DNA of 20,108 nucleotides from Spirochaetales bacterium (GTDB lineage Bacteria > Spirochaetota > Spirochaetia > Treponematales > UBA12059), in assembly GCA_004525355.1 (NCBI GenBank), contig SPCK01000003.1, forward strand, positions 1 to 20,108. The letters are read 5' to 3'. The first letter of the stretch is position 1. Each line of letters begins with the position of its first letter. Made by a program: the position numbers and the translations under genes. Shown here one piece after another: positions 4,317 through 17,610 of this stretch. Below the pieces are notes generated by a model, which saw only the letters and a program-made list of their open reading frames with translations, did no database searches and was not told the origin of the DNA.

Positions 4317-5738
4317 TTACACGTGTATTGCCCGGCCAAGCCCCACTTTGGCTGCCTCCATGATGCCTTCCGACAGGGTCGGGTGGGCGTGTATAATGTC
4401 GGCGACATCTTCGATGGTAAGCTCGGCATGAGATGCGAGCAATAGCTCGTGGATGGTGTCGGTGGCACCCGATCCGACGATGGACGCCCCCAGGATCGCA
4501 CCTGAGTCCGGCGAAAATACGATCTTGACCTGGCCATCGGGTGCCTCGGTCGCGACAGCTTTACCTATGCCGCGGAAGGGGAAGCGGGCTAGCTCGAAGC
4601 GAACTGCCAGCTCTCTGGCCTTCTTCTCCGACAGGCCAAAGGAAGCGACTTCGGGTTTGCAGTAGACGGCGCTTGGTATGGTGTATGGGTTGATTCTTGA
4701 TTCATGCGGTTCCGGTGTGCCTTTGAACAGATGTGCGATATGCTCTGCGGCAATTTCGCCTGCCTTTGACGCGACGTGGGCCAATTGCGGCTGTCTTGTT
4801 ATATCGCCGATCGCGTAGACCCCGGCCGCTGATGTCTCGTAGAAGTCGCCGGTCTCCACATATCCGCAGGTCAACCTGATGCCGAGTGCCTCAAGGCCAA
4901 GGTTTTCGGTGTTGGGGTCCCTTCCCACGGAGATGAGTACCTTCTCGGCCTCCAAGATGCTCGAAGTGCCGTCCTTTAGGGTTAGGGCAACCGAAACCAT
5001 CGATCCTGAAACGGTAGCTTTTTCAGCCCGGGTACCGGTGTATATGCGCACGCCACGTGCGATAAAGGCTCTCGCGACGATTTTTGCCGATTCCTCATCC
5101 TCGAGCGGAAGAACCTGGTCCAACAGTTCCACGATAGTAACCTCGACTCCGAAGGATCGAAGGACATATGCAAATTCCATGCCGATAGCGCCAGCACCGA
5201 GTATTATGATACTTTTCGGGAGACGTTCCGACATAAGGAGTCCAGTCGACGACAGAAAAAATATTTCATCAATTGTGAAGTTGGGGATCGACCGTGACCG
5301 GGAACCGGTGGCCAGAATAATGGCCTTGCCACGGATCGTCTCTGTGCCGCTACCGGTATCGATCAGGACGCCGTGTGCATCGGACATAGTCCCGGTTCCT
5401 CCAATGTATGCGATCTTGTTCTTCTTGAGGAGGTACTGGACCCCCTTGGACAACCTGTCCGCGGCGAGCCGAGAAGCCTCCCAAATGGTCGAATAGTTGA
5501 ATCCGGCCAGATCTACGACGGCTCCGGCCTTTTCGAGCAAGGCTTTGCCGTCGCTGTACAGGTTGGCTTGGTGTATGAGCGCCTTGGATGGTATACAACC
5601 AATATTGAGGCAGACGCCGCCGGGTGAGTCTTTTTCTATCACGGCGACGCTGAGGCCAAGTTGTGCGGCCCGGATACTTGCTACATAGCCGCCAGGTCCC
5701 GCACCGAGGATTACCACATCAAATGAACGTTCCGCCAT
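4317..5738 (-). CDS. lpd: Dihydrolipoamide dehydrogenase (E3 of 2-oxoacid dehydrogenase complex)
   Basis: 473 residues. The chosen ATG (5736-5738, start MAERSFDVVILGAG) has AAGGAG 8 bases upstream. The same frame stays open to 5867, but that extension overlaps lplA and does not resemble the family. FAD-binding motif GAGPGGYVA (12-20), redox-active disulfide CLNIGC (C43, C48), NAD-binding GAGAIGMEF near residue 190, second FAD contact YAIGD, and the catalytic His-Glu in HAHPTLSE near the C-terminus are all present, so it should be active. It reoxidises the dihydrolipoyl group on E2 and reduces NAD+. There is no N-terminal lipoyl domain, unlike some AcoL proteins. It is the second gene of an operon with lplA (58-bp gap). 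The matching E1 and E2 genes are at 11810-15099, so E3 is made from a separate transcript. Confidence 0.97.
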   Translation of the reverse strand: MAERSFDVVILGAGPGGYVASIRAAQLGLSVAVIEKDSPGGVCLNIGCIPSKALIHQANLYSDGKALLEKAGAVVDLAGFNYSTIWEASRLAADRLSKGVQYLLKKNKIAYIGGTGTMSDAHGVLIDTGSGTETIRGKAIILATGSRSRSIPNFTIDEIFFLSSTGLLMSERLPKSIIILGAGAIGMEFAYVLRSFGVEVTIVELLDQVLPLEDEESAKIVARAFIARGVRIYTGTRAEKATVSGSMVSVALTLKDGTSSILEAEKVLISVGRDPNTENLGLEALGIRLTCGYVETGDFYETSAAGVYAIGDITRQPQLAHVASKAGEIAAEHIAHLFKGTPEPHESRINPYTIPSAVYCKPEVASFGLSEKKARELAVRFELARFPFRGIGKAVATEAPDGQVKIVFSPDSGAILGASIVGSGATDTIHELLLASHAELTIEDVADIIHAHPTLSEGIMEAAKVGLGRAIHV

Positions 5739-5796
5739 TGCACAAGCTCCTTGTTTGAGATACCTATTGAATTCATCAGCTGAAATCGTGCCAACC

Positions 5797-6732
5797 TTAG
5801 CTATGCATAAGCACCCGAATTTCTTCCAGTATTCTGGTGGAAAATGGTTTTGCCTGGAGGCGGACAAGGTTCGTCTCGATATGCCTGTCCGATGCGATGT
5901 CCTTGAGGCCTTGCGTTACTGGGAGCCTGGAAACAGAAGTGCTTTCGACAAGCCCAGCACGGACACGAACTGTCACCAGGTGACTGAAGGTCTGGACATG
6001 TACGACGAATGGCGGAGTCAAACCGTAGGCCCACTCATTTGTCGCTAGCCTGGTTCTTTCCTGTTTTTGCCTGACGTTGTCGACAAGCCCAAGGGGCAAG
6101 ACTCCAGGCTCCTTGCCCGTGATGGAATACGACAGGTTTTTCATGACTTTCTGGACGGTGAGCCCTGGATGTATGTCGCACAGGTTAACCGGCGATGCTG
6201 AAACCGACGCAATGGAGTAGTCGTCCTGCGTCTCGATACCCCCCAGGCATTCGTGTAGACACTGCATGTCGGCTTTTACGAGTACGGTCCCGTGGTGCAA
6301 TACTGAGGCCCTATCGAACCGACGCGCGGTGCCGGATACTTTCCTACCGCCATACCCGGTAGTTTCAGTGCAGTATATTCCGCCATGTGCTCCCGGTGCT
6401 ACCTCGACCCCGCAGCTGGAGATTCCCCTGGCCACGGCTTCCAACTCAGCATCTTGGTCGTGCCCGTGACGCGGTATGATAAAGGCCCAATTCAAATTGC
6501 CCTCATCATGGTATACCGCGCCTCCGCCCGATGAGCGTCTGTAAAAAGGGATTGTAGCGTCATAGGCCACCTCGCGCCACGGGTTCTGATTCCTGCCAAT
6601 TATTACCGATGGTCGATTGATATAGAAGAGAATGAATGCCTGATCCGCCTGCAATGTCTCAAGAAGGATATTCTCGAGCGCCAGATGGTCGAGCGGGTCG
6701 TGACCCCCAACAAGGAAAGGTGTATATCGCAT
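5797..6732 (-). CDS. lplA: Lipoate-protein ligase A
   Basis: 311 residues from ATG 6730-6732 (MRYTPFLVGGHDPLDHLALE), which lines up with the E. coli LplA start. An in-frame ATG at 6808-6810 would add 26 unrelated residues and place the start inside a regulatory dyad; neither start has a strong ribosome site, so the start is less certain than the gene. Signature motifs are RRSSGGGAVYHDEGN (65-79), GGRKVSG with catalytic Lys131, and HHGTVLV. The C-terminal accessory domain is present (NEWAYG region), as in single-chain LplA. It activates free lipoate with ATP and transfers it to a lysine of lipoyl domains, here most likely Lys43 of the E2 at 13822-15099. It is first in an operon with lpd, which suggests the complex relies on scavenged lipoate. 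Confidence 0.95.
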   Translation of the reverse strand: MRYTPFLVGGHDPLDHLALENILLETLQADQAFILFYINRPSVIIGRNQNPWREVAYDATIPFYRRSSGGGAVYHDEGNLNWAFIIPRHGHDQDAELEAVARGISSCGVEVAPGAHGGIYCTETTGYGGRKVSGTARRFDRASVLHHGTVLVKADMQCLHECLGGIETQDDYSIASVSASPVNLCDIHPGLTVQKVMKNLSYSITGKEPGVLPLGLVDNVRQKQERTRLATNEWAYGLTPPFVVHVQTFSHLVTVRVRAGLVESTSVSRLPVTQGLKDIASDRHIETNLVRLQAKPFSTRILEEIRVLMHS

Positions 6733-6790
6733 AGTTGAGATACTGTATCGGAGATATGTATATTCCGTAAATAGAGGTGTTCTGGTTATG

Positions 6791-6844
6791 CCTGTTGCAA
6801 TACTGAACATCCCCAGAACGATTACTGTTCCAATATGGAGCAGT
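6791..6844. promoter_or_regulatory. Tandem dyads: probable upstream activator sites for the TRAP operon
   Basis: At 6824-6844 the arms ACTGTTCCA and TGGAGCAGT flank ATA; the arms are inverted copies with one mismatch. A weaker relative starts exactly 33 bp earlier (6791-6810: CCTGTTGCA, ATA, CTGAACAT). The same half-site occurs twice before the E1alpha gene. The sites lie about 125-180 bp upstream of the sigma-54 promoter, the usual place for enhancer-binding activators. They also lie upstream of lplA on the other strand. Binding by the activator encoded at 10168-11583 is inference. Confidence 0.65.
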
Positions 6845-6968
6845 ATATTTATAAATACTATTGAACCTGTTTGACTGGCCTGACCGGTGAGGTGGCGGAC
6901 TGCCTGCTGCAGCGGCTGAATACATGCCCAAACCTTGTAGCATATTAATATCCAAGAGGACCTTGCTT

Positions 6969-6984
6969 TGGCACGTTTATTGCA
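6969..6984 (+). promoter_or_regulatory. Sigma-54 (-24/-12) promoter of dctPQM
   Basis: TGGCACGTTTATTGCA is a full match to the TGGCAC-N5-TTGCA consensus, with GG (6970-6971) and GC (6982-6983) exactly 12 bp apart. Transcription would start near 6995, giving a leader of about 74 bases before dctP. An upstream dyad pair and an in-window sigma-54 activator support it. Confidence 0.88.
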
Positions 6985-7068
6985 TTATAGAAATATGACT
7001 CTCATATTCGTCGTCAATTTAATGGACGGCGGTATCATAGGATGCGAGCACGTTTGTAGGAGGCATTA

Positions 7069-8142
7069 ATGAAGGGTACAAGGTTGGTCCTTGCAATCAC
7101 GGTAATTCTGCTGGTAACCATGTCGGTTGCCACGGTTTCCGGCCAGGCTTTCAAGCCCAAGGCTGAGTACAAGATGCAAGTGAACGTCGGTCCAGCGTTC
7201 GACTGGGGCATCGGCGCCCAGCGATGGGCTGATCTCGTCAAGGAGAAGACCGGCGGCGAGATCATCATCAAGCCATACTTCGGTTCGACACTCCTGGCGG
7301 GCAAGCAGACAAACTGGTATCAGGCTGTCGCTGATGGCAGTATCGACTTCGTTGTCGAGTCGACGATTAACGCTTCCAGCGTAATCAAGTCGCTCAACCT
7401 GTTCAACCTGCCCTTCCTTATGAGTTCTTATGATGACGCTGACAAGATTGAGAACGGCAAGTCAGGTGCGATGATCATCAAGGAATTCGAGAAAGGTGGC
7501 ATCAAGTTCCTGGCGTGGGGCGAGAATGGCTTCAGGCAGGTAACGAATAGCAAGAAGCCCATTAGCTCTCCTCAGGATATGAAGGGTCTCAAGTTCCGTG
7601 TCGTTGGCTCTCCAATTTTCGTTGACATTTTCAAGCAGTTGGGCGCTGACGCGGTCAACATGAACTGGGCAGATGCGGTCACAGGTTTCCAGCAAGGAGT
7701 GGTTGACGGCCAGGAGAACCCCAAATCAGTACTTACCGTTGTCAAGATCTGGGACTACCACAAATACATGACCAACTGGTACTATGTCCTCGATCCGTTA
7801 ATTTTCGGCGTCAACGCCGATGTTTGGAAGAAGTTTCCCGCCAAATATCAGAAAGCGATCCAAGAAGCTGCGATAGAAGCAGCTGAGTATCAGAAGGCCT
7901 TGGCCCGTGCCTACCTTGATGGAACCAAGTCCCTTGACCTACTCAAGACCAAGTTCAAGGTTACCGATATGCCGATAGAGCCATTCGGACTTGCCGTATC
8001 GAATGGCATGGTTATCACTGACCTCACTCCCGCCCAGATGCAGGCTTTCAAGGATGTGATGAAACCGATCTATGACAAGTGGATTCCGTCCATCGGTAAA
8101 GGGATCTACGACGCTGCCCTGGCGGACATGAAGAAGAAATAG
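7069..8142 (+). CDS. dctP: TRAP transporter substrate-binding protein, DctP family
   Basis: 357 residues, ATG behind a strong AGGAGG. An N-terminal signal peptide (Lys/Arg then a hydrophobic stretch, about 1-26, cleavage probably after SGQA) sends it to the periplasm. The mature protein has the DctP fold signatures: GLKFRV with Arg177, the conserved position that salt-bridges the substrate carboxylate, the GVVDGQENP motif (about 210-218), and GENGFRQVTN (151-160). It captures the substrate and hands it to DctQM. The family handles C4-dicarboxylates, 2-oxoacids, lactate, sugar acids and sialic acid; the motifs seen do not choose between them. First gene of dctPQM, driven by the sigma-54 promoter at 6969, and probably the most abundant product because a stable hairpin follows it. 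Confidence 0.95.
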   Translation: MKGTRLVLAITVILLVTMSVATVSGQAFKPKAEYKMQVNVGPAFDWGIGAQRWADLVKEKTGGEIIIKPYFGSTLLAGKQTNWYQAVADGSIDFVVESTINASSVIKSLNLFNLPFLMSSYDDADKIENGKSGAMIIKEFEKGGIKFLAWGENGFRQVTNSKKPISSPQDMKGLKFRVVGSPIFVDIFKQLGADAVNMNWADAVTGFQQGVVDGQENPKSVLTVVKIWDYHKYMTNWYYVLDPLIFGVNADVWKKFPAKYQKAIQEAAIEAAEYQKALARAYLDGTKSLDLLKTKFKVTDMPIEPFGLAVSNGMVITDLTPAQMQAFKDVMKPIYDKWIPSIGKGIYDAALADMKKK

Positions 8143-8171
8143 TCTTCAGCCTTCGCTGAGAATCATGAAAG

Positions 8172-8260
8172 ATCCAGTGCCGCGCCAACGGCGCGGCACT
8201 GGATAATTATATCCTTAATGCTTCCCCTGATCTACGGTTTTCGCAGGGCGACAGGGAAGC
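8172..8260 (+). other. Intercistronic stem-loops between dctP and dctQ
   Basis: A 15-bp perfect stem (8172-8186 with 8190-8204) closes a 3-base AAC loop and is not followed by a T-run. A second, weaker stem pairs GCTTCCC (8220-8226) with GGGAAGC (8254-8260). Such structures between a binding-protein gene and its membrane genes commonly protect the upstream mRNA or partly stop transcription, so that the binding protein is made in excess. Here that role is inferred from position and stability only. Confidence 0.75.
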
Positions 8261-8279
8261 AACCAATCCGGAGAACGTC

Positions 8280-8780
8280 ATGACACACAAGAAAAAATAT
8301 CATTTCGACGAGCTCATCGCTGCTCTCCTCTTGGGCATCATGGCGGTTCTCACCTTCGCAAACGTGCTCAACCGCTACCTACTGAAGTCGAGCTTCGCTT
8401 TTACAGAGGAAATCACTGTAAGCATGTTCGTATGGATAACCCTGCTTGGCATTGCAATAGCCTTCCGGCGCGGCACCAACCTCAAGATGACCAACCTGTA
8501 CGATTCCTTCCCCACATCGCTCAAGAAGCTTTCCATGATTCTTTCAGCGTTTATCGGGATCGTCATTTTCCTGTTTCTTGTGTACAACTCGGGGCGCGAG
8601 ATAATAAAAAACATGACATTTTATCATACAACCTCGGAGGCCTTGGGTATACCAACCTGGATTTACAGCTTGGGAACTCCGTTGTTTTCAATATTTGTTC
8701 TGAAAGAAATAGTTTCAAGCACTATCAACGCCGTAAAGAAGCTCAATGGCAAAACACCTGACGGTACGGAAGAGGTCTAA
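8280..8780 (+). CDS. dctQ: TRAP transporter small membrane subunit
   Basis: 166 residues with a GGAG ribosome site. Four hydrophobic helices are visible (about 11-31, 45-62, 84-105 and 125-147), with the family-typical VWITLLGIAIAFRRG segment and positively charged cytoplasmic stretches (MTHKKKY at the start, VKKLNGK near the end). Length and helix count fit DctQ. It forms the inner-membrane complex with DctM and is required for sodium-driven uptake. Its TAA stop overlaps the dctM ATG by one base (TAATG), indicating translational coupling. It is 137 bp downstream of dctP, with two stem-loops in between. Confidence 0.92.
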   Translation: MTHKKKYHFDELIAALLLGIMAVLTFANVLNRYLLKSSFAFTEEITVSMFVWITLLGIAIAFRRGTNLKMTNLYDSFPTSLKKLSMILSAFIGIVIFLFLVYNSGREIIKNMTFYHTTSEALGIPTWIYSLGTPLFSIFVLKEIVSSTINAVKKLNGKTPDGTEEV

Positions 8781-10081
8781 TGATGGAAGCCCTTCTTGTA
8801 TTTGGAGTATTCATTGTACTGATCATTATCGGAACGCCGATCGGGCTGTCGCTAGGTGCGGCGGGGATTGGCGCAATCCTGCAATACGATCTTGGCTTTG
8901 CAATGATATCGCGCAACTTCGAAGCCAACATCGCCAAGTTCCCGCTCATCGCGATTCCCTTCTTCATACTTGCCGGCGTACTCATGGAAAAGGCACGCAT
9001 CGTCGACGGCATCTCCAAATTCGTAATTCTCCTGGTAGGCAAACGAACGGGTGGACTCGCGATAGCCGGTGTCATCACGTGCATCTTCTGGGGTGCCGTA
9101 TCCGGATCCGGTCCCGCGACGGCGGCGGCGCTTGGCCTTGTGTTCATCGTTCCCATGATAAAGCAGGGTTACAATAAATACTTTGCTGCGTCCACCATAG
9201 CGGCAGGCGCCGGCCTATCCATCATCATACCACCGAGCATTGCCTTTATAGTCTACGGTAACCTCACTAGCGTTTCTGTTGGCGCGTTATTCTTGGGCGG
9301 CATCATCCCCGGCATCATCGTAGGCTTGTTTCTGATTGTTGTCGTATTCTTGCAGTCAAAGAAACACAACTTCAGAGGCACGACGGAGGCTGGAACGCCC
9401 AAGGAAATCCTGAAGGCTTTCTTCGATTCAATCTGGGCTCTGATGGCGCCAGTAATCATCCTGGGTTCCATTTATGCCGGTATTGCCACTCCTACGGAAT
9501 CTGCCATAATCGGCGTGTTCTACGCTCTGGGTGTCGGCTTATTCGTGTACAAGACGATCACTTTCGACATCATCATCCAGACCCTGACCGATACCGCGGT
9601 TGGATCCGCTGTAGTGATGTTCGTTGTTGCGATGGCAGGCATTTTTTCGTGGGCCGCCGCAACCTTGGGAGTCATTGACGCGGCTGCCAATCTGGTTTCC
9701 AGTCTGACGTCGAATGCTGTCGTATTCGTAATGCTGACAAGCGTTGTAATGCTGATTGCGGGCATGTTCCTGGACGCGATATCTATTACCTACGTGTTCA
9801 TGCCGATAATCCTGCCAGCCCTGCTCGCGCTGGGTATTGACCCGCTATACTTTGGCGTGATATTCACCATCTCCCTTGCGGTAGGGCAGATAACGCCACC
9901 AGTCGCAGTCAACCTGTACGTGACAGCCAACCTTATCAAGAGCAATATCAACAACGAGATGGTCAAGTTCGTCATGCCAATGGTCTTGGCCGCGATTATC
10001 GCGCTCCTGTTCCTTATCTTCTTCCCGCAGATATCACTGTGGCTACCGGTAGCAGCGGGACTGTATAAGCCGCTGTTCTGA
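8780..10081 (+). CDS. dctM: TRAP transporter large membrane subunit
   Basis: 433 residues, very hydrophobic throughout, with about 12 membrane helices. DctM-type features include the early PIGLSLGAAGIGAIL, FFILAGVLMEKARI, GAVSGSGPATAAALG (the conserved substrate/sodium region), PPSIAFIVYG, ATPTESAIIGVFYAL and QITPPVAVNLYV. It is the ion-coupled permease that moves the DctP substrate across the inner membrane with Na+. The start is at 8780, overlapping the dctQ stop; a second ATG follows directly (MM), so the first residue is uncertain by one codon. Last gene of the operon, followed within 30 bp by a strong bidirectional terminator. Confidence 0.96.
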   Translation: MMEALLVFGVFIVLIIIGTPIGLSLGAAGIGAILQYDLGFAMISRNFEANIAKFPLIAIPFFILAGVLMEKARIVDGISKFVILLVGKRTGGLAIAGVITCIFWGAVSGSGPATAAALGLVFIVPMIKQGYNKYFAASTIAAGAGLSIIIPPSIAFIVYGNLTSVSVGALFLGGIIPGIIVGLFLIVVVFLQSKKHNFRGTTEAGTPKEILKAFFDSIWALMAPVIILGSIYAGIATPTESAIIGVFYALGVGLFVYKTITFDIIIQTLTDTAVGSAVVMFVVAMAGIFSWAAATLGVIDAAANLVSSLTSNAVVFVMLTSVVMLIAGMFLDAISITYVFMPIILPALLALGIDPLYFGVIFTISLAVGQITPPVAVNLYVTANLIKSNINNEMVKFVMPMVLAAIIALLFLIFFPQISLWLPVAAGLYKPLF

Positions 10082-10105
10082 ACCTGCGCAGAGTTGTTCT
10101 GCCCA

Positions 10106-10138
10106 AAAACCGAGGGCCATCCGGATGGATGGCCCTCG
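10106..10138. terminator. Bidirectional terminator between dctM and the activator gene
   Basis: A 12-bp perfect stem (10111-10122 with 10127-10138) has loop GGAT. Reading on the minus strand, the stem is followed by G and a run of five T (from AAAAA at about 10105-10109), so it is a standard terminator for the activator gene. On the plus strand it is followed by TTGTAT, a weaker tail, and would end dctPQM. Confidence 0.82.
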
Positions 10139-10167
10139 TTGTATATGGATGTCAGTCGATTACCGTA

Positions 10168-11583
10168 CTACAGTGCGTACTGCTTCATCTTTCTGTACAA
10201 AGTGTTCCTGCTGATCCCGAGTAACTTTGAACAGAGCGAGATATTGCCTTCCACCTCCTTGAGGGTACGACGGATCTCGTGCTTCTCCATCTGTTCTAGG
10301 TTGCGGATATTTGTATCGGATGGGTTGGCCGTTTCCGGTACCGGCACGTGCCTGAAGCTGTTGACGATGTGCTGAGGCAATTGATCTATCGTTAACTGGT
10401 CTGATTGCGAGATGATGATTGCACGCTCAATGACGTTTTCAAGTTCGCGGATGTTGCCTGGCCATGGGTATTCCTTGAGGATGTCGAGGACGAAGGGATC
10501 TATCTCCGGTATTGTCCGGCTGTGGTTGAGCGCGTTCTTCTGCACGAAATAGTTGACGAGAAGCGGTATGTCGTCGAGTCGTTCGCGAAGGCTCGGGGTG
10601 TGGATACAGAGCACGTTGAGCCGATAATACAGGTCCTCGCGGAAGTTGGTGTTTCGTATCTCCGCGAGGAGGTTCTTGTTGGTCGCCGCGATGACGCGTG
10701 TGTCCACTGTTATGTTCTTGGTACCACCAATACGAGAGAAGGTGTGGTCCTGCAGGACTCGCAAGAGCTTGGACTGCATGTCGAGCGGCAGTTCGGCTAT
10801 TTCGTCCAGGAATATGGTCCCGCCGTTGGCTTGTTCGAACTTGCCCGGGAAGCCTTCCTTCCTGGCACCGGTGAACGATCCCGACTCGTAGCCGAACAGT
10901 TCGCTCTCAATGAGCGAGCGAGGAAGGCTGGCGCAATTGACGATGATGAGCGGTCCAGAACTGCGCATACTCGCGTGGTGGATCGCGTGGGCGAACATTT
11001 CCTTGCCGGTGCCGCTCTCGCCTTCGATGAGGACATTGGCTGTACTTTGCGCCGCGATGCGTGAAAAACTGACCGCGTCGATGAATGCCGGATCGCGGCC
11101 AATGATGTCGTTGAACGAGAATTTTGCCTTTGCGCCGGTGATGCGCGCAACCATGGTGTGCATCGAATCGACAAGCCTGAACGTATCGATCACGCCCATC
11201 ATCCGTGCGTGCCGGTCCCTAAGGACTATGGCTGACTTCATGAAGTGAAGTTTACCCCTGCTCGGGCTATGGATGATGAATTCCTTCTCCAGGTAGCCTT
11301 GGCCGTTTTCCAATACGTCGAGTATTACCGGCCTGAAGTCAACGATTGTGGTTATATGCTTTCCCATCACCTGGGTCTGCGAAAGATCAAGTATATTTGC
11401 TCCCTGTTGGTTCAGGTACAGGACGTATCCGGCGGCGTCCAGGATGAGAATACCGTCGGCTATGGAATCGACTATCGTCTTGAGGATTGGCTCAGAGGCT
11501 ATCGAGAGCAGGCCAGCCTGGGGTGGGTTTTGCTCCTGGATATCGATGTCGACTATGTGCGATGTACTCGTCCACTGTACCAT
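10168..11583 (-). CDS. Sigma-54-dependent activator with PAS sensor domain (AcoR/NtrC superfamily)
   Basis: 471 residues; ATG 11581-11583 is preceded by GGAGGAGAT. A PAS domain (about 32-140, ADGILILDAAGYVLYLN) is followed by the AAA+ sigma-54 interaction domain: Walker A GESGTGKE (188-195), sigma-54 contact loop GSFTGA (235-240, Ser replacing the usual Ala), Walker B GTIFLDE (255-261) and WPGNIRELENVIERA (374-388). A Fis-type helix-turn-helix ends the protein (GNISLCSKLLGISRNTLYRK, 446-465), very like the AcoR/RocR C-terminus. There is no receiver domain and no GAF domain; AcoR proteins are usually longer. The PAS domain probably senses a metabolite of the pathway. It lies between two sigma-54-driven operons with shared upstream dyads, and one dyad lies just before its own start, so it likely activates both operons and may control itself. 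Confidence 0.95.
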   Translation of the reverse strand: MVQWTSTSHIVDIDIQEQNPPQAGLLSIASEPILKTIVDSIADGILILDAAGYVLYLNQQGANILDLSQTQVMGKHITTIVDFRPVILDVLENGQGYLEKEFIIHSPSRGKLHFMKSAIVLRDRHARMMGVIDTFRLVDSMHTMVARITGAKAKFSFNDIIGRDPAFIDAVSFSRIAAQSTANVLIEGESGTGKEMFAHAIHHASMRSSGPLIIVNCASLPRSLIESELFGYESGSFTGARKEGFPGKFEQANGGTIFLDEIAELPLDMQSKLLRVLQDHTFSRIGGTKNITVDTRVIAATNKNLLAEIRNTNFREDLYYRLNVLCIHTPSLRERLDDIPLLVNYFVQKNALNHSRTIPEIDPFVLDILKEYPWPGNIRELENVIERAIIISQSDQLTIDQLPQHIVNSFRHVPVPETANPSDTNIRNLEQMEKHEIRRTLKEVEGNISLCSKLLGISRNTLYRKMKQYAL

Positions 11584-11594
11584 ATCTCCTCCAA

Positions 11595-11638
11595 TGTGTC
11601 ACGATATGGAGCAGTTTAGTGTCAACTTTTGGAACAGT
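11595..11638. promoter_or_regulatory. Tandem dyads: probable activator sites for the E1-E2 operon and the activator gene
   Basis: Two copies, 23 bp apart, end in TGGAGCAGT (11607-11615) and TGGAACAGT (11630-11638). Each is preceded, 12 bp earlier, by a related left arm containing GTGTCA (11596-11601 and 11619-11624). The right arms equal the half-sites upstream of dctPQM. They lie about 135-180 bp upstream of the sigma-54 promoter at 11773, and the first is only about 12 bp from the activator start codon, which suggests autoregulation. An IHF-like sequence (GATCAA, 4 bases, TTA, 11660-11672) lies between the sites and the promoter. Confidence 0.65.
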
Positions 11639-11772
11639 CAATGTAAAATCTCGATATTCGATCAAGAATTTAACATTAACCAATACCCAGGAATCGTCAT
11701 TGATTGATCTTCAGTAGATTCCTGACACCTTAATCAAATGGAAATGATTCCCGATCCAAATTTTCCTGAATC

Positions 11773-11788
11773 CGGCACGGAATTTGCA
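11773..11788 (+). promoter_or_regulatory. Sigma-54 (-24/-12) promoter of the E1-E2 operon
   Basis: CGGCACGGAATTTGCA matches TGGCAC-N5-TTGCA at all but the first base. GG (11774-11775) and GC (11786-11787) are 12 bp apart. The start site would fall near 11799, only about 10 bases before the ATG at 11810, so the leader is very short and the GGGAGG ribosome site is close to the 5' end. Confidence 0.8.
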
Positions 11789-11809: not shown

Positions 11810-12841
11810 ATGCCATTCCAGAAAAGAGAATTCCCGAACAGGTTTGCGGAGCTGAGCAGGGAAGACCAGCATGGTCTGCTCAAGACCATGGTCAGGATAC
11901 GAACATTCGAATCCAGGGTGGAAGAGTTGTTCCTAAACAGGAAAGTGCCCGGATTTGTGCATCTGTATATTGGTGAAGAAGCCATAGCGACCGGCGTTAT
12001 GGCAAACTTGCGCAAGAGCGATTGGATCACGTCGACACACCGTGGACATGGCCACGCCATAGCCAAGGGTGCCCAGACAGACAGGATGATGGCCGAGTTA
12101 TACGGCAAGAAGACCGGTTACTGCAAGGGCAAGGGTGGGTCGATGCACATCGCCGACTTTACGATTGGCATGCTCGGAGCCAACGGCGTCGTTGGTGGAG
12201 GTTTCAATATCGCTGTGGGCGCCGGCATCTCGGCGATGATTAAGAAGACAGACCAAGTAGCTGTCAGTTTCTTTGGTGACGGTGCATCGAACCGGGGTAC
12301 CTTCCACGAGGCTCTCAACCTGGCCTCCATATGGAAACTGCCCGTCATCTTCATCAACGAGAACAACCAGTTCGCCTCGACGACTCCAACATCCTACGCC
12401 ACCTCGGTGGCCAGGATTTCCGACAGGGCTAAGGGCTACGGTATGGAAGGCTACACCATTGACGGCAACAACGTCGTCGAGGTATACAACGCCGCGGCAG
12501 AACTCATCAGAGGGACGCGCAAGGGAGATGGCCCGGTGCTCCTTGAGTGCATTACCTACCGCATCAAGGGACACTATGTCGGCGATCCTGAAAGGTACCG
12601 ATCCAAGAAAGAAGTGCAAAAGCAGGTCATCGAGAACGATCCGATAACACGATTCATCGACTATCTCAAAGAGAGGAAATTGATAGACGACAAGGAAGTC
12701 GAGAAGATCCGACGCGAAGCCAGCAGTGAGATAGCGGCCTCCGAGAAATTTGCGGAGGACAGCCCCTATCCCGAACCAGAGGAAGCTTGCAACGATCTAT
12801 TCTCGTTCTCTCCCAGTGAATTCCCAGAGGTAGCCTTATGA
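11810..12841 (+). CDS. acoA: 2-oxoacid / acetoin dehydrogenase E1 component, alpha subunit
   Basis: 343 residues with GGGAGG upstream. It is the thiamine-diphosphate-binding E1alpha: the ThDP/Mg motif GDG (156-158) is followed at the right distance by NENN (183-186), and GKGGSMHIAD (107-116) and GMLGANGVVGGG (120-131) are the active-site loops. The GMLGANG stretch and overall length are closest to AcoA-type subunits; pyruvate or branched-chain E1alpha remain possible, so the symbol marks resemblance. With E1beta it decarboxylates a 2-oxoacid, or cleaves acetoin, and passes the acyl group to E2 lipoate. First gene of a three-gene operon behind a sigma-54 promoter; its TGA overlaps the next ATG (ATGA). 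Confidence 0.93.
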   Translation: MPFQKREFPNRFAELSREDQHGLLKTMVRIRTFESRVEELFLNRKVPGFVHLYIGEEAIATGVMANLRKSDWITSTHRGHGHAIAKGAQTDRMMAELYGKKTGYCKGKGGSMHIADFTIGMLGANGVVGGGFNIAVGAGISAMIKKTDQVAVSFFGDGASNRGTFHEALNLASIWKLPVIFINENNQFASTTPTSYATSVARISDRAKGYGMEGYTIDGNNVVEVYNAAAELIRGTRKGDGPVLLECITYRIKGHYVGDPERYRSKKEVQKQVIENDPITRFIDYLKERKLIDDKEVEKIRREASSEIAASEKFAEDSPYPEPEEACNDLFSFSPSEFPEVAL

Positions 12842-13818
12842 GAACAATTACATTTTCCCAGGCGACGCTGGAGGCGATGCAGGAAGAGATGCGTCACGAT
12901 CCCACGGTATTCGTGTATGGCGAGGATATTGTCCGCCAGGGCGGCATCTTTGGCCAGTTCAAGGGCTTGCCCGAGGAGTTTGGGGACAGGATCAGAGACG
13001 TGCCAATAAGCGAGACTGCGATCATAGGTGCCGCCCTGGGTGCCGCGCTCACTGGCACGCGCCCTGTGGCTGACATGCACTTCGCCGACTTCATCTCGGT
13101 CGCTTTCGACGAGATCGTCAACCAGATTGCCAAGAACCGTTACATGTTCGGTGGACAGGTGAATATCCCCTTGGTGATTCGCGCGCCCGACGGTATAAGC
13201 AAGCAGGCCGCGGCACAGCACAGTCAGAGCGTCGAGGGCTGGGTGCAGAACGTACCCGGACTAATCGTCGTAGCGCCGTCGAGTGCGGCAACGGCAAAGG
13301 GACTCCTCAAATCGTCCATCAGACAGAACGACCCAGTACTATTTTTTGAGCACAAGTTGCTGTATCCCCAGAAGGGCCCCGTACCTGAGGGCGAGTACCT
13401 AACACCCCTCGGAAAGGCCGAGGTACGCAAACCCGGCAAGGATGTGACAATTGTCACATACTCGATCATGGTGCAGAAGTCGGAAGAAGTGGCGGTGGAA
13501 CTCGAGAGGGAAGGCATTTCTGTCGAGATCATCGATCTCCTCACCTTGAAACCCTTTGATGCCAAGACTGTCATCGAATCAGTCAAGAAGACACACCGCT
13601 GTGTCGTCGTGCACGAGGGCGTCGTCACCGGCGGATTCGGAGCGGAGATCGCATCCAGGGTACAGGAAGAGGCCTTCCACTACCTCGACGCGCCAGTCCT
13701 TCGCGTCGGCGCGAAGAACTTCCCGATACCCTTCAGCCCCATCCTCGAAAACTACGTGGCAGCCAACCAGGAGGACATCAAGTGCGCGATCCGCAAAGTT
13801 CTCCACAGGGAGGGCTGA
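12838..13818 (+). CDS. acoB: 2-oxoacid / acetoin dehydrogenase E1 component, beta subunit
   Basis: 326 residues, ATG overlapping the E1alpha stop by four bases, so translation is coupled. E1beta signatures include VYGEDIVRQGGIFG (27-39), DVPISETAIIGAALG with the ThDP-activating Glu59, MHFADFISVAFDEIVNQIAK (80-99) and QHSQSVEGW with active-site His128. The C-terminal transketolase domain follows (KDVTIVTYSIMV, VEIIDLLTLKPFD, VVHEGVVTGGFGAEI). It completes the alpha2-beta2 E1 that uses ThDP to decarboxylate the substrate. All key residues are present and the length is normal. As with E1alpha, the choice between acetoin and a true 2-oxoacid cannot be made from these motifs. Confidence 0.94.
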   Translation: MRTITFSQATLEAMQEEMRHDPTVFVYGEDIVRQGGIFGQFKGLPEEFGDRIRDVPISETAIIGAALGAALTGTRPVADMHFADFISVAFDEIVNQIAKNRYMFGGQVNIPLVIRAPDGISKQAAAQHSQSVEGWVQNVPGLIVVAPSSAATAKGLLKSSIRQNDPVLFFEHKLLYPQKGPVPEGEYLTPLGKAEVRKPGKDVTIVTYSIMVQKSEEVAVELEREGISVEIIDLLTLKPFDAKTVIESVKKTHRCVVVHEGVVTGGFGAEIASRVQEEAFHYLDAPVLRVGAKNFPIPFSPILENYVAANQEDIKCAIRKVLHREG

Positions 13819-13821
13819 GCA

Positions 13822-15099
13822 ATGGCTACCGAAGTTTTGATGCCCCAGTTGGGCCTTACCATGAAGGAAGGTCTCATCACAGAGTGGAAGAAGCATGAGG
13901 GAGACGCAGTCGAGCGGGGCGACCAGCTGTTCAGTGTGGAAAACGATAAAGCCATCCTGGACGTCGACGCCCAAGCGGATGGCATTCTTGCCAGGATCAT
14001 CGTTCATGAAATGACCTCAGCGCTTGTCGGAACCGCCATAGCCATCATTGCCGCGCCCGGCGAGGTTGTAACCGAGGTGCCGGTGTCCGCAATGGCTCCG
14101 GCGCCGCTGGCTGATGTACCGGCTGGCAAATCTGTGCCTTTTGCCGCTCCAAGCCCCGCGGCCGCTCCGGCCGTCAGTGTGGCACCAGGGAAAAGCTCAG
14201 CCAGTGCCCTCGGTACCAGTGCGCAACAGGTCGACGGATTTGTTCTCGCCTCACCTTTGGCGCGTAAGACGGCCGAGCGGCTCGGCGTGCGATTGTCAGA
14301 CGTTCGAGGATCCGGTCCGGAAGGCGCGGTTCTTGCCCGCGACCTGCCAGAGGCGGGTGACTGGTACGCGATGGCGAAGACTCAATCCGGTGTATTGGGC
14401 GCCGCACAATCTTCGAGTGTGTCCTACGATGACATCACTCTGTCGAGGATACAATGCGTGTCAGCTGAACGTATGGCGGATAGCTGGACGAATATTCCGC
14501 AGTTCACGCTGTATGACGAAGCTGAAGCGAGCCTGATCCTGACACTTGCGGAGCGATTCAAGAATAGAGGTGAGCCGGTGTCTCTGACCGTCATCATTGC
14601 CAAGCTTATGGCCCACGCGGTGGCCAAGCACCCTCGCCTCAACGCGTCATGGTTGGGTGATGGTATGGTGCGGGCGTACCGGAGCGTCAACATCAACATA
14701 GCAGTGGATACAGAAGATGGCCTCATGGTGCCGGTCCTGCGGGATTGCACCGGGAAGGGTTTTGTCGCCCTTGGTGCCGAGATGAAAAGCTTGGAGAAAA
14801 AGGCGAAGTCCAAGTCGCTGGAGGCGCAAGATCACGAAGGTGGGACAATTACGCTTTCCAACTTGGGTATGTTTGGGATCAAGCGTTTCTGCGCTATCGT
14901 CAATCCGCCACAAGCGGCAATCCTTGCTGTGGGTAGCGTCAACGACAAAATTGTCGGCATTAATGGCAGTTTCGAAGTCCACAAGGTGATCGAGTACAGC
15001 ATTACCGCCGACCACCGAGTCATCGATGGCGCCTGCGCTGCCCGATTTATGGCTACTTTGCGTTCAATGCTGGAGAATCCCGCGCTAGCGATGGAATGA
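13822..15099 (+). CDS. acoC: Dihydrolipoamide acyltransferase (E2)
   Basis: 425 residues, starting 3 bases after the E1beta stop with AGGGAGGG upstream. There is one lipoyl domain (1-80) with the lipoylated Lys43 in VENDKA, an Ala/Pro-rich flexible linker (about 85-138), a peripheral-subunit-binding domain (about 141-175, ASPLARKTAERLGV then GSGPEGAVLARDL), and a catalytic acyltransferase domain (about 195-425) ending in HRVIDG, with catalytic His398 and Asp402. It takes the acyl group from E1 and gives it to CoA; E3 (lpd, 4317-5738) reoxidises the lipoate. Lys43 is the likely target of LplA (5797-6732). The single lipoyl domain and full catalytic domain distinguish it from AcoC versions related to alpha/beta hydrolases. 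No terminator was recognised in the 77 bp after it. Confidence 0.95.
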   Translation: MATEVLMPQLGLTMKEGLITEWKKHEGDAVERGDQLFSVENDKAILDVDAQADGILARIIVHEMTSALVGTAIAIIAAPGEVVTEVPVSAMAPAPLADVPAGKSVPFAAPSPAAAPAVSVAPGKSSASALGTSAQQVDGFVLASPLARKTAERLGVRLSDVRGSGPEGAVLARDLPEAGDWYAMAKTQSGVLGAAQSSSVSYDDITLSRIQCVSAERMADSWTNIPQFTLYDEAEASLILTLAERFKNRGEPVSLTVIIAKLMAHAVAKHPRLNASWLGDGMVRAYRSVNINIAVDTEDGLMVPVLRDCTGKGFVALGAEMKSLEKKAKSKSLEAQDHEGGTITLSNLGMFGIKRFCAIVNPPQAAILAVGSVNDKIVGINGSFEVHKVIEYSITADHRVIDGACAARFMATLRSMLENPALAME

Positions 15100-15176: not shown

Positions 15177-17159
15177 TCACTTGAGTGCCCGAGTCGCGTT
15201 CAGCACAGCCAGGAGCGCAACGCCCACGTCCGCGATGACAGCCTCCCACATGGCGGCCAGGCCAAAGGCGCCGAGTGACAATACGACCAGCTTGACCCCC
15301 AGCGCGAAGGCGATGTTCTGAACCACGATGCGCCTCGTTTTCTTGGCTCGGGAGATGGCCTCCGCCACGCGTGAAGGTTCGTCGGTCATCAGCACGACGT
15401 CAGCGCTTTCCACGGCCGCGTCCGAACCCGCGCCGCCCATGGCGATGCCCGCGTCCGCCCGTGCCAGCACCGGCGCGTCGTTCATCCCGTCGCCCACGAA
15501 CAATACCGAACCCTTGCCACGTTCCTGGTTTAGGATAGCTTCCAGCCGCTGCAGTTTGCCTTCGGGCAGGAGGCCGTGGTGTACTTCGTCGACTCCTGCC
15601 GCGGCGGCGGCCTTCCTCGCGGGAAACTCGCCGTCACCGGTGAGCATGGCCACCCGGTGGATACCCAGGTTCCTCAGTTCGTCCATGGCCTTTGCGGCGT
15701 CCTTTTTCAATCTGTCACCGAGTTCGATCCGGCCAGCGTAGCGTCCCGCCACCGCGACGTGTATGACCGTATCCGGCCCGTCCATGCATCGATGCGGGAT
15801 TTCTCTGAGGTGCAGGAGCTTGTCGCCGCCGGCCAGGACCTCGGTACCGCCGGTTCGCGCCATGGTGCCGTGGCCGGGGATCTCGGCATAGCTGCCTTCG
15901 TCGCAACCCGGCCTGGGACTTCCCGTAGCGTCCCACGCGGCGCGTATCGCGCGGGCCAGAGGGTGATTCGAGTGCGTACCCGCCGCCGCCGCGTGGCGCA
16001 GGAGCCCGACTTCGTCGAATCCGTTTTCAGGCCTCAGTTCGGCCACGGCGAACTTGCCGTCCGTCAGCGTTCCCGTCTTGTCGAATACAACCGTGCCCAC
16101 GTCAGCAAGCGCGTCCAGCACGGACGCTCCCTTGATCAGGATGCCGCGCCTGGCCGCACCGCCCAGCCCCCCGAAATAGCCCAGGGGGACGCTGATCACG
16201 AAGGCGCAGGGGCAGGAGATTACGAGTAGTACCAGCGCGCGGTAGATCCAGTCGGAGAAAACCTGGCCCGGGACGAACAACGGCGGAATGAGCGCTATCA
16301 GAAGCGCCGCGCCAACTACCGCGGGTGTATACCAGGCGGCGAAGCGGCTGATGAACAGTTCGGTCCGCGCCTTTGACTTGGATGCATTCTCAACGAGTTC
16401 GATGATGCGGGCAGCTGCCGAATCGGAGGCGGGTTTTTCCGCCCGTATGCTCAAGGCACCGTCACGGGAAATAAAGCCCGCCAGGGCTTCGTCTCCCGGA
16501 AGCGCCGGACGCGGCAGGCTTTCTCCCGTCATTGATGAAGTGTCAAACGATCCAGCGCCCTCGGTCACCGTGCCGTCGACGGGAACGCGCTCTCCGGGAC
16601 GTACGAGGAGGCTGTCCCCCGGAACTACTTCACCGGCCGGAAGCTCCACCCACTGCCCGTCACGGAATACCCGGGCAGTGTCGGGGCGCAGCGCCAGGAG
16701 GGTTTTTATGGATCGCCTGCTGTTGTCGGCAGCGCGTTCCTGCAGAAACTCGCCGATCTTGTAGAAAATCATGACGCCAACGGCTTCTTCCATCGCGCCG
16801 ATGGCGAAGGCGCCGAGGGAAGCGATGGACATGAGGAACAACTCATCGAATACCCTGCCCTTGAGGATATTCCTGGCGGCGCCCAGGAGAACATCGTAGC
16901 CGGCCAGGAGATATGCCGTTCCCAGGATTACGGCCGCGACGGAGCGACCCGCCAAGCCGACCGCCTTCTCCCACAGGAAAAATCCCGCGACTCCCAGGAG
17001 CAGGGCCGCGGCAAGACGCCAGAGTTCCGTTTTTTGAGCGCGGGTGAGGCTGGCCGGCTTCTGCACACCCTTGAAAGCGTCGGCGCGCACCCGTTCATGG
17101 GCGGCGCAGGAGGAGCAGCAGGAGCCATCGGTTTCGTATGTGCCGTTGATCACTTCCAC
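15177..17159 (-). CDS. cadA: Zn2+/Cd2+/Pb2+-exporting P1B-type ATPase
   Basis: 660 residues from GTG 17157-17159, five bases after the repressor stop; the frame is open further upstream, but that part overlaps the repressor and is not family-like. AGGAAAGG about 13 bases before the GTG is the likely ribosome site. Motifs: TGES (211-214), CPC in a membrane helix (316-318), DKTGTLT with phosphorylated Asp360, a SNHPLA histidine-proline motif, and GDGMNDAP. The helices after the P domain carry a Lys (GVKLVVL) and DVG (IADVGVALLAVLNA), the P1B-2 pattern for zinc, cadmium and lead. Instead of a full N-terminal heavy-metal domain it has a short tail with CCSSC (C14, C15, C18). It pumps metal out of the cytoplasm. 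Co-transcribed with the CadC-like repressor. Confidence 0.94.
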   Translation of the reverse strand: MEVINGTYETDGSCCSSCAAHERVRADAFKGVQKPASLTRAQKTELWRLAAALLLGVAGFFLWEKAVGLAGRSVAAVILGTAYLLAGYDVLLGAARNILKGRVFDELFLMSIASLGAFAIGAMEEAVGVMIFYKIGEFLQERAADNSRRSIKTLLALRPDTARVFRDGQWVELPAGEVVPGDSLLVRPGERVPVDGTVTEGAGSFDTSSMTGESLPRPALPGDEALAGFISRDGALSIRAEKPASDSAAARIIELVENASKSKARTELFISRFAAWYTPAVVGAALLIALIPPLFVPGQVFSDWIYRALVLLVISCPCAFVISVPLGYFGGLGGAARRGILIKGASVLDALADVGTVVFDKTGTLTDGKFAVAELRPENGFDEVGLLRHAAAAGTHSNHPLARAIRAAWDATGSPRPGCDEGSYAEIPGHGTMARTGGTEVLAGGDKLLHLREIPHRCMDGPDTVIHVAVAGRYAGRIELGDRLKKDAAKAMDELRNLGIHRVAMLTGDGEFPARKAAAAAGVDEVHHGLLPEGKLQRLEAILNQERGKGSVLFVGDGMNDAPVLARADAGIAMGGAGSDAAVESADVVLMTDEPSRVAEAISRAKKTRRIVVQNIAFALGVKLVVLSLGAFGLAAMWEAVIADVGVALLAVLNATRALK

Positions 17160-17164
17160 GGTTT

Positions 17165-17539
17165 TTATGCCTTTCCTTCCGCGGCGTGCTCGGAGGCGAG
17201 CGCTAGCAGGTAACGGACGTGCTCGTCGTCCAGGGAATAGAATACCACCTTGCCGTCCTTGCGTGGTTTGACAAGCCTCGCACGCCTGAGCACGGCCAGC
17301 TGATGGCTCATGGCAGACTGCGTCATGTCCAGTGCGGCGGAGAGGTCGCACACGCACAGCTCGTCCCCGAAGGCCAACGCGTTCAGTATCCGCAGGCGGG
17401 TGGGATCCCCGAGGACCTTGAACAAGTCAGATACGCCAAGCAGCCTGGCCGTTGGCATTTCCGCGACTTTGGCGGCGGCGACCGCGTCCGGGTGCACGGT
17501 CTGGCATGAGCACGTCTCAAGAACTGCAACCGGTTTCAT
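17165..17539 (-). CDS. cadC: CadC-like ArsR/SmtB-family metal-sensing repressor
   Basis: 124 residues from ATG 17537-17539 with GAGG upstream; an earlier in-frame ATG (17569) would lie inside the operator, so it is rejected. A winged helix is seen (LGDPTRLRILNAL, then DMTQSAMSHQLAVLRRARLV, then KDGKVVFYSL). Both classical metal sites are visible: N-terminal C10 and C12 with C62 and C64 (ELCVCD) make the CadC-type alpha3N thiolate site, and D105, H107, H118 and E121 make the D-x-H-x10-H-x2-E alpha5 zinc site. The spacing follows S. aureus CadC (C58, C60, D101, H103, H114, E117) with an offset of four. It should repress the cad operon and release DNA on binding Cd, Pb or Zn. Confidence 0.93.
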   Translation of the reverse strand: MKPVAVLETCSCQTVHPDAVAAAKVAEMPTARLLGVSDLFKVLGDPTRLRILNALAFGDELCVCDLSAALDMTQSAMSHQLAVLRRARLVKPRKDGKVVFYSLDDEHVRYLLALASEHAAEGKA

Positions 17540-17562
17540 GGTCACCTCGTTGTATGAATATA

Positions 17563-17610
17563 TGAGCAAGTATTCATGTATACTATATATCGACTCTCCG
17601 CAGTATTCAA
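17563..17610 (-). promoter_or_regulatory. Sigma-70 promoter and ArsR-type operator of the cad operon
   Basis: On the minus strand, TTGAAT (17605-17610) and TATAGT (17582-17587) are separated by exactly 17 bp. Just downstream, TGAATACTTGCTCA (17576-17563) matches the SmtB/ArsR core TGAA-N6-TTCA with one mismatch and covers the expected start site, so bound repressor would block transcription. A further TATTCAT (17552-17558 area) extends the symmetry. Confidence 0.78.

Follow-up and report, generated by a model that had tools for sequence, protein, structure and literature searches.

The closest described systems are the acetoin regulons of Bacillus, Clostridium and Pelobacter, where, as at the locus reported here, a sigma-54 activator (AcoR) governs an operon for E1-alpha, E1-beta and E2, acoABCL (PMC6615313; PMC3543383). 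AcoR is also, like the activator at this locus, a group 2 (PAS/ligand) activator (PMC7175178). On the TOL plasmid, the sigma-54 activator XylR drives two promoters, Pu and Ps, and represses its own gene, whose promoter is divergent to Ps (PMC3469447). Sites of the type TGT-N10-12-ACA have been described for 15 activator groups in Clostridiales (PMC6615313).

The window analysed here is the whole stretch of 20,108 nucleotides from a Spirochaetales bacterium (GCA_004525355.1, contig SPCK01000003.1, forward strand). It very probably holds a sigma-54 regulon in which one activator, made from its own sigma-70-like promoter, serves two operons by way of paired enhancers. One operon encodes a TRAP importer and the other a dehydrogenase.

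Organization of the locus

The features of the locus are as follows (UAS, candidate enhancer).

4317..5867, minus strand: dihydrolipoyl dehydrogenase (E3), a neighbour not assigned to the regulon (TIGR01350 above cut-off)
5797..6810, minus strand: lipoate-protein ligase, a neighbour not assigned to the regulon (PF21948 from residue 38)
6793..6810, plus strand: candidate UAS 1 of dctP, TGTTGCAATACTGAACAT (score of 8.1, weak, with the E1-alpha-trained motif model; 33 bp from UAS 2)
6824..6844, plus strand: candidate UAS 2 of dctP, a near-perfect palindrome, ACTGTTCCA-ATA-TGGAGCAGT (motif score of 20.3; 0/500 shuffles)
6969..6984, plus strand: predicted sigma-54 (-24/-12) promoter of dctPQM, TGGCACGTTTATTGCA (GG-N10-GC; precedes dctP at 7069)
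7069..8142, plus strand: dctP, TRAP solute-binding protein (PF03480; TIGR00787 above cut-off)
8280..8780, plus strand: dctQ, TRAP small permease (PF04290)
8780..10081, plus strand: dctM, TRAP large permease (PF06808; TIGR00786 above cut-off)
10168..11583, minus strand: sigma-54 activator with PAS, AAA+ (GSFTGA) and Fis-type HTH domains (PF00989; PF00158, 227 bits; PF02954)
11597..11614, plus strand: candidate UAS A of the E1 operon (start codon of the activator 13 bp away; tabulated in 8/9 loci, not L142)
11613..11618, minus strand: sigma-70-like promoter of the activator, -10-like hexamer TAAACT (consensus match)
11620..11637, plus strand: candidate UAS B of the E1 operon (9/9 loci; in the 17-bp spacer and -35 edge of the activator's own promoter)
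11636..11641, minus strand: sigma-70-like promoter of the activator, -35-like hexamer TTGACT (consensus match)
11773..11788, plus strand: predicted sigma-54 (-24/-12) promoter of the E1 operon, CGGCACGGAATTTGCA (GG-N10-GC; precedes E1-alpha at 11810)
11810..12841, plus strand: E1-alpha, TPP-dependent dehydrogenase (PF00676; below the pyruvate dehydrogenase equivalog cut-offs)
12838..13818, plus strand: E1-beta (PF02779/PF02780; above the cut-off of subfamily NF006667)
13822..15099, plus strand: E2, lipoyl dihydrolipoamide acyltransferase (PF00198, PF00364, PF02817)

A previous sequence-only reading had proposed two -24/-12 promoters with the window's one sigma-54 activator between them. Both elements were found at the positions and with the GG-N10-GC spacing given there, and a single PF00158 gene, with the domains described, lies between them. 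The same reading called the regulon self-contained, which holds for the dctPQM and E1 operons and, on present evidence, not for E3 and the lipoate-protein ligase gene (lplA). It was silent on this adjacent minus-strand pair. Control of lplA-E3 by a third -24/-12 element was considered and set aside, as none was found on the minus strand of the scanned stretches (the window, L034 and L185). Judged by eye, translation of the ligase probably starts at an inner ATG (6732).

The importer and the dehydrogenase

The families DctP, DctQ and DctM that make up a DctP-type TRAP transporter are all present. In a fold search the closest solved relative of DctP was 4p8b, the Ralstonia eutropha TRAP binding protein H16_A1328, whose ligand we take to be 2-acetolactate. 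This compound is among the ligands identified for TRAP binding proteins (PMC5812351).

The gene contexts of plasmid-borne DctP relatives were taken from 12 of 29 matching records. Among these 12, the six with identities of 37.6-48% (Thermus, Azospirillum) are all linked to E1, while the six with identities of 33-36% are not, and have an acyl-CoA synthetase gene nearby in 6/6. It should also be noted that the relatives of DctP (62/120 rows) and of E1-alpha (51/120 rows) have 13 record lengths in common, which is suggestive only.

Support for the proposal that import of a substrate is coupled to its oxidation comes from two genomes of the spirochaete genus g17 (G030 and G082), in which dctPQM is joined to E1 as one operon, and from E1-TRAP operons in Thermus and Azospirillum. 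An alternative is that importer and dehydrogenase are co-regulated while acting on different compounds, the importer bringing in, for example, an organic acid for some other route and E1-E2 being an ordinary pyruvate dehydrogenase. This would agree with E1-beta passing the pyruvate dehydrogenase subfamily model NF006667 (348 against a cut-off of 321) and with the genome of the window having no other E1-alpha at E <= 1e-20. However, E1-alpha remains under both pyruvate dehydrogenase equivalog cut-offs (354 of 394 for TIGR03182 and 241 of 411 for TIGR03181), and the E1-TRAP linkage recurs in g17 and on the Thermus and Azospirillum plasmids. In a tree of 48 loci these TRAP-linked E1s and that of the window form one clade with a support of 100, though the long branches of Thermus and Azospirillum may, as the tree program cautioned, be joined artefactually. 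Separate substrates are considered rather unlikely on this evidence.

A further reading, an acetoin dehydrogenase (AcoABC) controlled by an AcoR-type activator, is unlikely. E1-alpha is indeed closer to aco-like E1s (49-50% identity) than to the lplA-linked E1s of other spirochaetes (about 37-41%), yet the tree draws it beside the aco-like E1s of Acetobacterium and Enterococcus, whose aco names are predictions, with a support of only 40. Relatives of the activator, 39-41% identical to it, lie directly upstream of acoABCL-like genes (Acetobacterium and other Bacillota) in 7 of 80 loci; eight more of the 80 are the spirochaete orthologues beside E1. In one of the seven (L085) the contig stops after E1-beta, and at a separate locus (L089) genes for E3-E1-E2 lie approximately 1.5 kb downstream of the activator relative. 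The remaining 64 have no such neighbours in the available DNA, barring weak or single matches, so the wider family of this activator has no fixed association with the E1-E2 enzyme. Furthermore, E2 scores 86 against the cut-off of 307 of the acetoin-type E2 model NF011457, and acetoin is neutral, yet DctP keeps an Arg177, invariant in 29/29 sequences, that was equated by eye with the carboxylate-binding arginine described in PMC4646407. The absence of acetolactate decarboxylase (0/11 genomes) also speaks against acetoin. A route from acetolactate to acetoin through that decarboxylase was set aside for the same reason.

A more speculative and quite doubtful suggestion is that the TRAP-linked E1s found here, in Thermus and in Azospirillum represent a subfamily acting directly on the imported acid, "undescribed" solely in that a literature search found no description of it. 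It is put forward because of the TRAP-linked clade, the proximity of DctP to 4p8b, 2-acetolactate ligands and the missing decarboxylase. If 2-acetolactate or a similar 2-hydroxy-3-oxo acid is imported, its oxidative cleavage by E1 could give acetyl-CoA and pyruvate, analogous to the cleavage of acetoin and without the decarboxylase.

Paired enhancers and the activator

A paired motif of approximately TGTYNCA-N3-TGNRACA, with two copies usually 31-33 bp apart, was found upstream of both promoters. Its half-site TGGARCAGT occurs four times in the window against 0.32 expected, all four upstream of the two promoters. Sites and pattern had initially been chosen by eye. The motif matrix was built from 17 sites of the E1-alpha side, with the dctP side left out of training. 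This matrix detected paired sites upstream of dctP in 6/6 readable regions. Across five activator loci the best dctP-site score was reached by 0, 0, 13, 0 and 1 of 500 shuffles, with the site of L143 (13/500) only modestly better than chance. The sixth region (L185, genome G645), which ends inside dctM before any activator could appear, has sites 32 bp apart with scores of 15.5 and 5.8. Second sites in other loci score 5.8-12.8, and the E1-alpha pair of the window is spaced 23 bp compared to 32-33 bp elsewhere. Scores of at least 10 were seen six times in 257,207 bases of background. An early whole-genome search with the enhancer pattern (up to 3 mismatches) returned 56 matches, mostly with three mismatches, compared to 18 with the control pattern, and was set aside as evidence.

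The activator has the domain make-up of a group 2 enhancer-binding protein, with an AAA+ domain containing Walker A and the loop, a PAS-type sensory domain and a Fis-type HTH. Its GAFTGA loop is the variant GSFTGA, shared by 8/8 orthologues read and by two further activators encoded in the same genome. The HTH segment GISRNTLYRKM is likewise found in 8/8 orthologues read (of 9).

It is very improbable that, with both promoters being sigma-54 dependent, one of the two is driven by a different activator of the genome, the local one being restricted to the divergent E1 operon. The genome does encode five proteins with strong PF00158 matches, four besides that of the window, and one of these, on contig C481, is followed at short distance by a TGGCATGGTTATTGCA element of its own. 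Against this, the same type of enhancer precedes both promoters, whereas the C481 promoter region has no paired enhancer (best score 0.7) and shows, by eye, different palindromes of the TGTGCA type. In three of the four other activators the HTH segment differs from GISRNTLYRKM, and the fourth yielded no such segment. Among the 18 scannable sites of 19 promoter-like sites in the genome, scores of at least 14 were found only at the dctP and E1-alpha promoters (next 8.1), by construction in the case of E1-alpha, whose own two sites are in the matrix, leaving dctP as the independent case; none of the others carries paired enhancers. In g17, moreover, the activator and the dctP promoter are jointly absent. 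These results support the earlier suggestion that this activator serves both promoters.

The enhancer pair of the E1 operon covers the -35/-10 region of the activator's own gene. The two hexamers match 9 to 10 of 12 consensus bases in 9/9 loci, while the next best of 255 placements averages 6.6; the -35-like hexamer is partly common to enhancer B, so that the two signals are not fully independent. Binding there should therefore lower synthesis of the activator, and the overlap suggests self-repression.

Conservation of the promoters

Orthologues of the activator were found in 9/390 genomes of the order, all within the 11 that have a close E1-alpha. The other two, G030 and G082, retain rpoN and have neither the promoters nor the enhancers; as they share one genus, they represent at most one evolutionary event. 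The tree places the activator-bearing loci on one side of a branch with a support of 89 (87/88 in another run), with outgroups as used, which fits a gain of the activator, loss in g17 being the alternative. Families f1 and f4 do not form clean clades (AU p 0.036 and 0.038), a hint that the locus may have moved from one family to another.

Within the window, exact matches to YGGCACGNNNNTTGCW are limited to the two promoters. With one mismatch allowed there are four against 0.43 expected, a number reached in 0/100 shuffles. Across the 2.65-Mb genome, NGGCAYNNNNNTTGCW has 19 matches compared to 31 for the reversed control pattern, and the -24/-12 pattern alone is weak evidence at this scale. The two promoters rise above chance because of their place and their conservation across orthologous regions. 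The loci are metagenome assemblies, and the region upstream of dctP was reached in only 5/9 activator loci. A search of the related genomes, as had been recommended, with a slightly wider pattern that was fixed after the sequences were seen, detected the promoter upstream of E1-alpha in 9/9 orthologous regions (19/18,000 shuffles) and upstream of dctP in 6/6 readable ones (36/12,000 shuffles), at -37 to -40 from E1-alpha and -95 to -109 from dctP. A single copy of rpoN is present in the genome of the window, and the gene was found in 11/11 genomes. That the matches arose by chance and sigma-70 runs the operons, as the missing genome-wide enrichment might imply, is hardly credible given conservation at fixed distance in 15/15 upstream regions (activator-bearing loci and G645; 55/30,000 shuffles) and the lack of the elements in both activator-free relatives.

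Proposed model

It is proposed that the PAS-AAA+-HTH activator, made from its own sigma-70-like promoter, would bind the paired 17-18-bp enhancers roughly 75-200 bp upstream of the two -24/-12 promoters. An inducer, presumably bound at the PAS domain, would allow the activator to open sigma-54 polymerase at both promoters. DctPQM and the E1-alpha/E1-beta/E2 complex would then be produced jointly, while the presence of the activator on the enhancer pair beside its own gene would hold down its own synthesis. DctP would import a carboxylate, and E1-E2 with an E3 would oxidise it or its product to an acyl-CoA. Uptake and oxidation of an organic acid thus appear to be produced together.

What was a guess from two short motifs becomes a defined, testable regulon in uncultured environmental spirochaetes. 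It comes with enhancer sites and a likely self-repression loop, and relatives lacking the activator serve as natural controls. The pairing of TRAP importer and TPP-dependent dehydrogenase recurs in at least three phyla, and a pathway could be named from a single binding assay together with a single enzyme assay.

Comparison with known systems

Unlike the AcoR regulons, the regulon described here includes a TRAP importer with its own sigma-54 promoter. Neither PMC6615313 nor PMC3543383 uses the term TRAP in its main text, and a literature search found no paper combining "acetoin dehydrogenase" with "TRAP transporter". A further difference from the acetoin regulons is the lack of acetolactate decarboxylase in 11/11 genomes of this group. 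The best NCBIfam model for the activator is that of PrdR, the proline reductase regulator, at 427 bits and far under the cut-off of 795; PrdR is similar in being a PAS group 2 activator with TGT-ACA sites (PMC6615313; PMC7175178), and no prd genes were seen in the window.

The plasmid operons of Thermus and Azospirillum have E1-alpha, E1-beta and related DctPQM genes side by side on one strand, as here. They differ in that no sigma-54 activator is annotated in the stretches examined, where a TrmB-type or XRE-type regulator gene precedes, and in that the Thermus locus has a free lipoyl domain only and the Azospirillum locus no E2. XylR resembles the present case with one sigma-54 activator for two promoters and an own sigma-70(-like) promoter overlapped by an enhancer (9/9 loci here), but belongs to another pathway, and self-repression is predicted here from the overlap of sites. 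The regulon can be regarded as a variant among the AcoR/XylR-like catabolic regulons, in which the paired enhancer motif upstream of both promoters is new.

Organization of the locus and conservation of its promoters

The window, which is the entire contig C215 of a metagenome assembly (2.65 Mb in 506 contigs, 93% complete), encodes E3 and lplA (minus strand), dctPQM (plus), the activator (minus) and E1-alpha, E1-beta and E2 (plus), in that order, with the following features:

4317-6810, minus strand, E3 and lplA, divergent to dctP
6793-6844, paired candidate enhancer sites upstream of dctP
6969-6984, -24/-12 element before dctP
10168-11583, minus strand, activator (PAS, AAA+ and Fis-type HTH)
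11597-11614, candidate enhancer site A of the E1 operon
11620-11637, candidate enhancer site B of the E1 operon
11773-11788, -24/-12 element before E1-alpha
11810-13818, plus strand, E1 genes
15177-17569, minus strand, P-type metal ATPase gene adjoining an ArsR-like regulator gene (translations read by eye)

Both -24/-12 elements claimed by the sequence-only reading were found exactly in place. Its claim of one activator was borne out for the window, where this protein is the sole one of the genome's five strong PF00158 proteins; rpoN is present in a single copy in the genome. E3 occupies the same position in the related genomes G002 (locus L034) and G645 (locus L185), while in locus L065 an lplA-E3 pair instead lies beyond the end of the E2 operon, oriented toward it.

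Among 390 genomes of the order, E1-alpha relatives were detected in 25 (E <= 1e-90), with ten genomes besides the window's own at 71-79% identity and the remaining 14 at 46-51%. An activator orthologue (E <= 1e-120) was present in nine, the window's own counted, all of which also carry the E1 relative. The sequence-only reading had proposed a search of relatives for the same two promoters, and these were recovered: all nine activator loci have a -24/-12 element 37-40 bases ahead of E1-alpha, and all five whose contigs extend that far have one 95-109 bases ahead of the dctP start. A sixth dctP region with the element was found in G645, a member of another family, on a contig that stops inside dctM, short of any E1 or activator gene. 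The conservation pattern, fixed only after the sequences were known, was matched by 19 of 18,000 shuffles on the E1-alpha side and 36 of 12,000 on the dctP side.

Candidate enhancer sites shared by the two promoters

The window contains four copies of the half-site TGGARCAGT (0.32 expected), every one of them upstream of the two promoters. Alignment by eye showed two enhancer sites in each E1-alpha upstream region (site A was not tabulated for locus L142). Seven of the eight pairs have a spacing of 32-33 bp; the window's pair is the exception, at 23 bp. A matrix built from 17 E1-alpha-side sites only was applied to the 400 bases upstream of dctP, where the best score in the five activator loci was equalled by 0, 0, 13, 0 and 1 of 500 shuffles, with a second site 31-33 bp off in each (scores 8.1-12.8). 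The G645 region gave sites scoring 15.5 and 5.8, spaced 32 bp. In the two activator-free loci the region upstream of dctP scored 1.7 and 3.0, values that about half of the shuffles also reached. Outside the regulon, six sites scored at least 10 in 257,207 bases of partly overlapping loci.

One strict pattern, which misses sigma-54 promoters departing from it, gave 19 promoter-like sites in the genome, 18 of them scannable and one without upstream sequence. Scores of at least 14 were obtained at the window's two promoters only, the next highest being 8.1; the E1 promoter scores highly by construction, its own sites being in the matrix, which leaves the dctP promoter as the independent test. Another activator of this genome, on contig C481 (loci L173 and L172), has its own -24/-12 element with different, TGTGCA-type palindromes, and this element precedes a gene resembling a solute-binding protein (both by eye).

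Genome comparison gives good support to the earlier proposal that the activator would serve both promoters, and to the activator, promoters and enhancers forming one predicted regulon.

Relatives lacking the activator

In G030 and G082, two genomes of genus g17, the E1 genes come directly after dctPQM in the same orientation, and no activator gene separates them; E2 is visible in G030 and the G082 contig ends in E1-beta. No activator was detected elsewhere in these genomes at E <= 1e-120, nor a -24/-12 element before dctP or E1-alpha, nor enhancers before dctP, while rpoN is retained. This pattern agrees with the gain or loss, in one piece, of a single regulatory unit, and counts once because both genomes represent one genus. 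The E1 tree placed the activator-bearing loci on one side of a branch (support 89; 87/88 in another run), with g17 next to them and Thermus and Azospirillum outside. The simplest, if unproven, reading is a single gain of the activator by an older dctPQM-E1 unit. Families were not clean clades in the E1 comparison (AU p about 0.04), which hints that the locus may have been transferred between families. The window's E1 genes are closer to those of G038 (family f4; compared with loci L142, L034 and L036) than to those of its own family members G001 and G002.

Predicted self-repression

In all nine loci the activator gene has a sigma-70-like promoter (TTGACT-like, 17 bp, TATAAT-like) whose spacer falls on enhancer site B. 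Its hexamers agree with the consensus at 9-10 of 12 bases, against a mean of 6.6 for the runner-up among 255 placements. Within the window, the -10 end and the leader are covered by site A. Since the enhancer sites lie over this promoter, the bound activator should block its own promoter, and self-repression is likely judging from this overlap. XylR is reported to activate two other promoters while repressing its own transcription (PMC3469447); here self-repression is inferred.

Comparison with known systems

Thermus plasmids (L178, L180, L186) carry E1-alpha and E1-beta adjacent to genes for a related TRAP transporter, and in place of E2 they have a free-standing lipoyl domain (82 aa in L178). 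The same genes are adjacent on Azospirillum plasmids (L181, L187, L188), with no E2 in the stretch shown. The Enterococcus faecalis plasmid pEGM183 (L177, 2487-9251) carries a gene for a sigma-54-dependent Fis-family activator, then lpdA, E1-alpha, E1-beta and E2, with no TRAP transporter in the stretch shown. Activator relatives (39-41% identical) lie directly upstream of acoABCL-like genes in L078, L081, L082, L085, L087, L092 and L098. Between them the element TTGGCAC(A/G)GTTCTTGTTAT, a -24/-12 element with TTGT replacing TTGC, is kept in 7/7 (by eye).

Published accounts cover TGT-N10-12-ACA-type sites and the AcoR and PrdR regulons (PMC6615313), activator groups (PMC7175178), the Pelobacter aco cluster (PMC3543383), and TRAP ligands including 2-acetolactate (PMC5812351); PMC4646407, PMC10472528 and PMC12632250 were also drawn on. 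Among the papers searched, mostly open-access ones, none contains both 'acetoin dehydrogenase' and 'TRAP transporter', and no such regulon in spirochaetes appeared among the matches listed in wider searches, judging by their titles and abstracts. The system resembles an AcoR-like catabolic regulon; what is likely new here is its extension to a TRAP importer, under an activator that probably limits itself.
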